Of a stretch of 64,000 nt of DNA, positions 54,401 to 57,400 are shown piece by piece. The position numbers and the translations under genes are program-made. The DNA lies in assembly GCF_964204645.1 (NCBI RefSeq), contig NC_134025.1, positions 1,493,001 to 1,557,000 on the forward strand, read 5' to 3'. The notes beneath the pieces are model-generated. The model saw only the letters and a program-made list of their open reading frames with translations, searched no databases and was not told where the DNA came from. The first letter of the stretch is position 1; every line of letters starts with the position of its first letter. Origin of the DNA: Tubulanus polymorphus (lineage: Eukaryota; Nemertea; Palaeonemertea; Tubulaniformes; Tubulanidae).

Positions 54401-57400
54401 CCTCGAGGCGAGACACTTATCCCCATTGCCTCTTTCCACCGAGAAGCGGGTTCCTGTCCTAATAGATGACTCCTGAGCGCCAATAGTAGTACAGCTCAGA
54501 TGTCACTTCTTTCCGGGGATAGATGACAGGTACAAAGTTACAGATAAAGGCTAAGGGTGATGATATCAATGTCACTCCTTCCTGGGGAATGATGACGCAG
54601 TTTAAAATAAAGGCCAGGGGTTCCTCTTCCCAGAGAGAGGTAACAAAGGCCAGGGGTTCCTCTTCCCAGAGAGAGGTAACAAAGACCAGGGGTTCTTCCT
54701 AGAGAGAGGTAACACAATAAGAGAAAAAGGATAGAGTTTCTTCTCCGAAAGGAGAGATGACTGATACACACAGATTGGTTGTAGATATTGAACCTTTATG
54801 ATACTTTTATAATTTGCATGTTTTTTTAGGCGAGTTTCGACAGTGAAAATAGTGAGAATTCATCATTACGTCGTTACGTAATTGGAGCAGAATCGGCGAC
54901 CGACTCAGGAGAAGGCAGCGGTAATAATCGACTGGGTCGAATACATTTCACCATCAGTTACGACTTCCCGGCGACGACTTTAATCGTTAAAATTTTTCAA
55001 GCGGTGAATTTACCGGCGAAGGATTTCTCCGGCACCAGCGACCCGTATGTCAAGGTCATGTTACTGCCCGATAAAAAGCACAAAATGCAAACGAAAATAA
55101 AACGTAAAACGCTCAATCCGCGATGGAACGAAATATTCCTGTTTGAAGGTAATAATCAATCATTCGTACTAGTCCAGGGGCAGGTTCCATAGACAGGGCT
55201 TAGACTAAGACAAATTTAGTTCTATAGCCAATCTAACAACTTAGGACCAGTCTTAAGGTTTAACACCACTTTTGGTCTTAAGTCTCGACTATGGAACCGG
55301 CCCCTGATATCCTGGAAATTCGTAATTAAGTCAATTGATTAATTAAAGGTTTGCATCTGTAGCTATGAAAAAGCTATGGAATTTGTTTAGAAATGTGGTC
55401 TGGTTTATAACGTTGTCTGATGAAATAGCTGCTAACGCGCACTTAACTTCTAAACCAGTTTCTAAAAGGTGTGTTATATTTTTCAGGTTTTCCATATCAT
55501 AAAGTGACGGAACGTATTCTATATTTGGAGGTATTAGATTTCGATAGATTCAGTCGAGATGATCCGATCGGAGAAATAGCTTTACCTCTTCGAGATATCG
55601 ATTTGACTGAAGAACAATCATTGTGGAAAGATTTACAACCATGTACTATAGCCAGGGTAGGTGTTTGATTGATATACTACTATAGCCAGGGTAGGTGTTT
55701 GATTGATATACTACTATAGCCAGGGTAGGTGTTTGATTGATATACTACTATAGCCAGGGTAGGTGTTTGATTGATATACTAAAGCCAGGGTAGGTGTTTG
55801 ATTGATATACTACTATAGCCAGGGTAGGTGTTTGATTGATATACTACTATAGCCAGGGTAGGTGTTTGATTGATACACTAAAGCCAGGGTAGGTGTTTGA
55901 TTGATATACTACTATAGCCAAGGTAGGTGTTTGATTGATATACTACTATAGCCAAGGTAGGTGTTTGATTGATATCCTACTATGGCCAGTGTAGGTGTTT
56001 GATTGATATCCTACTATGGCCAGGGTAGGTGTTTGATTGATATACTACTATAGCCAGGGTAGGTGTTTGATTGATATACTACTATAGCCAGGGTAGGTGT
56101 TTGATTGATACACTAAAGCCAGGGTAGGTGTTTGATTGATATACTACTATAGCCAAGGTAGGTGTTTGATTGATATCCTACTATGGCCAGTGTAGGTGTT
56201 TGATTGATATCCTACTATGGCCAGGGTAGGTGTTTGATTGATATACTACTATAGCCAGGGTAGGTGTTTGATTGATATACTATAGCCAGGGTAGGTGTTT
56301 GATTTGATGGTGAGCTATCATTTAGAGTTTTAAACTGATAGTTTATGCTGTCTCAGTCCCTGTCTACTGACGGTAGGATGTTAAGTGGCTTGTTGTTGAT
56401 AATCGTAATTCATTTATTCCAATGATTTGCATCATTCTGTTTGATGTAGAATGAACTCGTGATGAATAAGAATTGCCTTAAATCCAAATGAACTATTTAC
56501 ATCGAAACCGATGTTTTTGTTTTAGTAATTATTCAATCGTCGATTGTGAAGGCGTTGTGCTCCGTTGTGCTCCGTTCTGCTATTGAATATCTCTGAGTAT
56601 TGGTGAAGTATTCGTGTATGATATAATATAGGGTGTGCCTCGCCTCTTTATCGGTTATCCTTGACGTTTTTATTTTTTCATATTCAGCCTATACACTCTT
56701 ACATGATACCTAATACTAGATATCCGACTACAGTGAAAGTCGTCATAGGATAAGTCATTATTTCATCTCTATTTTTGAGTCTTAATTTGAATTTCTTCAT
56801 TAGATTTAATTAGTTTAAATTGTCGTTAGATCAGTCGTTGACATAATGACAGCCCAACTACGACAAGGTTTACTATATACTTAAACCGATGTATGTTTTT
56901 ATTCTAGTTGAGCTGAAATGTACAGGTCTCGCCGCCTGAAATAGCACAGCATTGATTTAGTCTTAATGAGTTTTCATTTCACTATTTAGTATTTTCCCCT
57001 GAATTCGTTTATTTCATCATCACCACCGTGCTTGCTGCTGCTGCTGCTGCTGCTGCTGCTGCTGCTGCTGCTGCTGCTGCTGCTGCTGCTGCTGCTGCTG
57101 CTGCTGCTGCTGCTGCTGCTGCTGCTGCTGCTGCTGCTGCTGCTGCTGCTAGCTGTAAATTGTTTTCTTCCTCGGGTAAAGCTTTAATAGAATGAGGAGA
57201 ACAAAGAAAAATACTACGAAGAAAGAGATAAAAATGTATTCATTTTAAACCTGGATAGATTTCTGAGAATTGATTCGTCAGATGATATAAATCCGCAGTC
57301 TCACTAATCGGTATACGTTTCAACAGCTACTTATGAAGCCCTTGTTAAAAACTTTTTAGAAAGTGCAAATGAAACGACTAAACGGAGAGTTCTTCTTTAC

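Follow-up and report, generated by a model that had tools for sequence, protein, structure and literature searches.

A minisatellite across an exon-intron boundary repeats the 5' splice site of a predicted SYT7 C2A exon in Tubulanus polymorphus

The SYT7 locus

The window analysed here, a 64-kb stretch of the T. polymorphus genome, holds exons of a synaptotagmin gene. Their translation found its best PDB sequence match in Synaptotagmin-7 (6ank, 309.2 bits), whereas the best entry for Synaptotagmin-1 reached 205.2 bits and SYT3 186.5 bits. With SYT7 as the top synaptotagmin match and both C2A and C2B present, the gene is identified as SYT7. Four exons (one read from 54831, 55487-55656, 62800-62914 and a C2B exon) could be joined into a single open frame which covers C2A and C2B and ends in a stop. 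The C2B exon, the last one found, lies beyond the window and shows 66% identity to vertebrate SYT7 over 86 residues. The features of the locus are listed below, a slash marking a splice junction.

54830..55148, plus strand: SYT7 exon, first part of C2A (vertebrate SYT7 match; donor GAAG/GTAAT; joined frame open)
55149..55486, plus strand: upstream intron, 338 nt (gap between adjoining exon ends)
55487..55656, plus strand: SYT7 exon of 170 nt, remainder of C2A, end ...DLQPCTIAR (acceptor TTTTTCAG/GTTTT; phase-0 donor)
55644..56304, plus strand: 34-bp minisatellite, 20 units, first 13 bases coding (TRF and 14-mer count)
55657..55665, plus strand: authentic 5' splice site AGG/GTAGGTGTT, unit 1 (sole full-length-frame donor among 20; U1 duplex -11.6 kcal/mol)
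55657..62799, plus strand: array-bearing intron, 7,143 nt (exon ends of the joined frame)
55666..55668, plus strand: TGA stop, in frame upon use of any downstream donor (19 of 19 products end in VGV and stop)
55691..56304, plus strand: decoy region, 19 donors (14-mer count)
55691, 55725, 55759, 55790, 55824, 55858, 55889, 55923, 55957, 55991, plus strand: decoy donors 1-10 of 19 (14-mer count)
56025, 56059, 56093, 56124, 56158, 56192, 56226, 56260, 56291, plus strand: decoy donors 11-19 of 19 (14-mer count)
62800..62914, plus strand: next SYT7 exon, C2B start (SYT7 match; open joined frame)

The exon start at 54830 was set by eye at TTTTTTTAG/GCGAG, and the script that joined the frames began at 54831. 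The phase-0 donor at 55657 is supported because the linker between C2A and C2B has the same length as in the 6ank alignment. The original prediction had placed the acceptor at 62799; the next SYT7 exon does lie there, but it starts at 62800, and 62799 is the last base of the intron. Ahead of the SYT7 exon that starts at 54830 there are three 36-bp units (54609-54714), two of which contain TTCCTCTTCCCAG/AGAGAG/GTAAC, an arrangement that resembles a tiny exon.

A 34-bp array with twenty donors

TRF described the array on the plus strand as a minisatellite of period 34 with 19.8 copies, 93% matches and a score of 1133. As had been predicted, it starts inside the last coding bases of the C2A exon, 13 bases before the exon end. 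These 13 bases, TACTATAGCCAGG, form the start of unit 1 and code for the end of ...DLQPCTIAR; the base right after them opens the donor GTAGGTG, the exon/intron boundary being 55656/55657. The first 14 intron bases of the authentic donor, GTAGGTGTTTGATT, occur 20 times within 55657-56291, with spacings of 34 bp in 15 and of 31 bp in 4 of the 19 cases. The near-identical downstream donors, originally put at about 19, thus number exactly 19. Elsewhere on the plus strand of the window GTAGGTG has a single extra copy, at 17658. Twelve arrays of the window were chosen from the TRF table and inspected at their edges, and the SYT7 array was the one case seen to reach across an exon end, gene models being at hand for SYT7 only.

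When the array was used as the query in a DNA search of its own 268-Mb assembly (by a method that skips very common words), this single place was found. Within the array the order of blocks recurs, units 6-13 corresponding to units 13-19, the latter block being one unit shorter. The unit variants and the recurring block order look like ordinary array evolution.

Outcome of splicing at each donor

Of the 20 donors, just donor 1 can be spliced in frame to the exon at 62800 and so gives the full-length frame; this bears out the identification of the authentic donor with repeat unit 1. All 19 downstream donors leave the protein unchanged through ...CTIAR and then add VGV and a stop, exactly as foreseen. 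Depending on the donor, the distance from this stop to the last coding junction downstream of it is 137-737 nt. By the usual rule a stop in such a position upstream of the last junction marks the mRNA for nonsense-mediated decay (NMD). As the distance is at least 137 nt, NMD is predicted and a stable C2A-only protein becomes unlikely. The locus resembles a regulated AS-NMD switch in that an alternative site with a premature stop exists, here at 19 of 19 downstream donors. Use of units 2-4 would give exons of 204-272 nt, so the nearest decoys are not excluded by exon length.

Donor strength, RNA structure and constraint

GTAGGTG is present in 20 of 20 units and the G at position -1 is kept in 18 of them. 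The donor reads AGG in 15 units, AAG in three (units 9, 10 and 16) and AGT in two (units 11 and 17), each followed by GTAGGTG, with U1 duplex energies of -11.6, -12.2 and -9.9 kcal/mol, respectively. The duplexes were computed with the U1 5' end. Two other SYT7 donors gave -6.6 and -9.9 kcal/mol. The authentic donor is therefore strong, though not the strongest of the array. Donor strength was rejected as the selector: 14 of the 19 decoys share AGG/GTAGGTG, three pair better with U1 and two are weaker (-9.9). RNA structure was rejected as well, since in three predicted settings the authentic donor was no more accessible than the decoys; the accessibility of unit 1 was 0.001 in the 80/40 setting, the lowest of all 20, and was printed as 0.000 in the other two. 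According to these models, neither local sequence nor predicted structure can be the basis of donor choice.

Constraint on the donor inside the array was not significant: in 15 of the 20 units (unit 1 and the four 31-bp units being left out) there were no variable columns at +1 to +14 against four on the exon side, for which a simple count gives P ~0.10. With GTAGGTGTTTGATT kept in all 20 units, nothing points to purging of the decoys.

Other arrays in the genome

Genome-wide enrichment of tandem donors over the reversed motif was not found, three tandem AGGTRAGT at 18-48 spacing giving 110 matches (30 + 80) and the reversed motif 373 (173 + 200). The matches represent at least nine distinct donor arrays and, among those listed, three of nine adjoin exon boundaries (L041, L046 and L048). 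For the control, the flanks of five of the 14 distinct arrays among the matches listed were inspected (seven loci, three of which are the same array). By ORF listing none of these five was seen to span a boundary, and one of them, L061, was read base by base; another control array, L053, lies inside a 701-codon open frame. The counts of three of nine and none of five are too small for a test. We roughly estimate that, given a genome this large and rich in introns, 5-10% of arrays placed at random would lie across a boundary; the placement could thus be due to chance. At L061 (minus strand) the minisatellite, in a Tub-family gene (PF01167, 1.4e-12), begins some 30 bp past an exon donor, inside the intron, and does not span the boundary.

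L041 (minus strand, C1:812398-812561) has the exon end AGATAG/GTAAGT, and the 430-nt intron that follows contains five 39-bp units. Each unit carries TAGGTAAGT, and the array starts at the donor of what is assumed to be the first coding exon, which could be joined to the next two exons to give the open frame MPSSYEE...HIKDRYNYVFIVALIQG.... These two downstream exons had no Pfam match; they hit the nucleoside transporter model NCBIfam 2a57 (2.8e-5, below the whole-protein cut-off) and, weakly, ENT1 (E 0.018), which suggests an ENT-like transporter. An exon matching Nucleoside_tran (1.9e-11) lies upstream on the same strand and is therefore assigned to an adjacent copy of ENT type rather than to the exon set of L041.

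In L046 (minus strand, C6:22541311-22544661) the exon end GGTGAG/GTGAGT forms the first unit of a 51-bp repeat with 66.7 copies, and the array holds 64 AGGTRAGT. The flanking exons are collinear matches to the dynein heavy chain domain DHC_N2 (2.6e-12, 2.0e-4, which is below the family cut-off, and 9.1e-18). The exon adjoining the array had no Pfam match and is based on its splice signals and open frame. The units correspond to 17 codons and are partly open, so that downstream donors would often add in-frame repeats and not a stop.

L048 (plus strand, 2470-2590, C9) is the acceptor-side counterpart of the donor arrays. The 3' splice site TTTTACAG/ACTTACC is present five times, its last copy leading into an exon which matches PG_binding_1 (3.2e-5); the reverse strand reads AGGTAAGT. 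We take this exon to be a putative MMP-like prodomain; a PDB sequence search with it found nothing at E up to 1 and did not confirm the MMP identity. A further array, L043 (minus strand, C1:31370333-31370802), is built from CCCCCTCATCAG/GTGAGT units, roughly 27 bp long, where acceptor-like and donor-like sequences abut like a zero-length exon.

Among the matches listed, which were sorted by contig, seven of nine donor arrays were within 0.9 Mb of a contig end; of the control arrays listed, 12 of 14 were within 1.7 Mb and the other two were on C2. For the SYT7 array the distance to the contig start is 1.55 Mb. Minisatellites gather near chromosome ends in some genomes, and closeness to contig ends may explain the local expansion of arrays.

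Relation to known boundary-spanning repeats

Tandem repeats across exon/intron boundaries have been described in amphioxus as "mirages", in Adh3, the globins BflGb6 and BflGb9, troponin C and PGBD5 (PMC3087553, PMC3902484). In the available excerpts of the first report, Adh3 mirage units measure 10-72 bp, mirages affect both 5' and 3' boundaries, and many of the copies, not all, hold AG/GT signals (PMC3087553). The Adh3 data and RT-PCR of the globins suggest undisturbed regular splicing (PMC3087553), and the report on lancelet PGBD5, where repeats lie over splice sites, cites the Adh and troponin C mirages as being without aberrant mRNA in its available text (PMC3902484). The SYT7 array is likewise a tandem array of the minisatellite type (period 34, 19.8 copies), its unit spans the exon-intron boundary with 13 coding bases in unit 1, and its copies carry splice signals (GTAGGTG in 20 of 20). 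It belongs to this published kind, the boundary-spanning minisatellite or mirage. SYT7 has 20 donors, whereas amphioxus BflGb6 has 6 and 3 units in two haplotypes (PMC3087553). The mirages of both reports, as far as the excerpts go, are from cephalochordate hosts. For the genome with the SYT7 array, a COX1 protein search aimed at placing the host gave no match.

Internal tandem repeats at exon-intron boundaries also occur in human segmental duplications, with a mean unit of about 30 bp (PMC2812944). In the available part of that report they are linked with novel introns and alternative splicing, whereas the SYT7 array extends from one exon end into the intron and leaves the frame intact. No publication on the SYT7 array itself was found in the open-licence literature. 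Introns are reportedly born from tandem arrays as well, by copying of segments that bear AG/GT (Zhuo 2007; Gao and Lynch 2009 are said to describe this).

How donor 1 may be chosen

It is reasonable to ask how twenty donors compete, and precedent suggests that the exon-side copy is used cleanly. The explanation may lie in exon definition: we think it probable that the array is a tolerated passenger and that donor 1 is used in this way. A tandem expansion of 13 exon bases and the next 21 bases would have taken place at the 3' end of the C2A exon, and the copies, sitting in the intron, would be removed with it during splicing. Since the flanking introns measure 338 nt upstream and 7,143 nt downstream, the exon would be recognised by exon definition. 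We propose that splicing proceeds from donor 1, whose position closest to the upstream acceptor would let it win despite equal local sequences. Rare use of a downstream donor would give an mRNA with an early stop, which NMD would be expected to remove.

Competition between identical 5' splice sites has been studied in HeLa minigenes, which share with SYT7 tandem identical donors at one exon and long flanking introns. With two identical strong donors and flanking introns of 365 nt the upstream donor was used exclusively (n=5); with both donors weakened the upstream preference held in smaller constructs, while larger ones skipped the exon (PMC9225289). These were engineered donor pairs whereas SYT7 has a natural array of twenty, and at 338 nt its upstream intron falls a little short of those in the minigenes (PMC9225289). 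In the same report, human donor pairs of near-equal strength at exon-defined exons, which have long introns, also preferred the donor nearest the upstream acceptor. Before matching for strength, about 60% of human events favoured the downstream donor, with a majority in each of the four intron classes; after matching, 60% over all intron classes favoured the upstream one. Donor strength decided 86% of events (PMC9225289). Human DOK7 has two donors separated by 11 nt, and according to another report the intron-proximal one is preferred (PMC5585400). Three of our own results run counter to the choice of donor 1 by exon definition: units 9, 10 and 16 pair better with U1 (-12.2 against -11.6 kcal/mol), RNA accessibility is not in favour of unit 1, and the exons made with units 2-4 would not be too long. 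The overall downstream preference in human exons (PMC9225289) slightly lowered our confidence in the array as a passenger and slightly raised the weight given to an effect on dose.

Such an effect would make array length a heritable dial of SYT7 dose, more decoys giving more transcripts with the VGV stop and hence more NMD. We regard this as unlikely, even with GTAGGTG kept in 19 of 19 decoys (14 sharing AGG/GTAGGTG, three pairing better with U1), each decoy predicted to yield an NMD-type transcript and human exons leaning downstream overall (PMC9225289); mirages are reported with normal mRNA (PMC3087553, PMC3902484), and the upstream of two identical donors was used exclusively in exon-defined minigenes (PMC9225289). 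More doubtful still is the specific proposal that the array of about 20 near-equal donors varies and that each extra unit raises the odds of decoy use and decay, so that alleles differ in SYT7 dose. If true, the logic of the heritable dial would extend to other genes of the genome, for example the dynein gene with 64 donors. The many U1 sites might instead act jointly, either by boosting exon recognition at donor 1 or by blocking premature polyadenylation in the 7-kb intron. U1 has roles of both kinds in general, and there are 20 donor-type sites in about 660 bases, 18 of them with duplex energies of -11.6 kcal/mol or below; telescripting is named in PMC4889658. This joint action, too, we hold to be improbable.

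The C2A-only form of SYT7 that the original prediction entertained would be a stable, membrane-bound product of the decoys. A downstream donor does end the protein after C2A with VGV, but the position of the stop makes every such transcript an NMD substrate by the usual rule. Intronic polyadenylation could rescue a C2A-only transcript from NMD; even so, we consider a stable protein of this kind extremely unlikely. That the array length is an artefact of assembly is very unlikely: tandem arrays are hard to assemble, but the unit variants with their recurring block order, and the single place of the array on a 32-Mb contig, argue against it.

The exon-side donor of the probably tolerated array remains the one that we infer to be used. 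Lying in a conserved neuronal gene, the SYT7 array offers a natural test of how one donor is picked among twenty nearly equal local sequences, and the further cases, one with 64 donors and another with repeated acceptors, would form a graded series for such a test of donor choice. If donor 1 is not used cleanly, array length would be a heritable regulator of splicing. If it is used cleanly, exon-side proximity would be strong enough to render boundary-spanning minisatellites nearly neutral, and this near-neutrality would explain why they recur.
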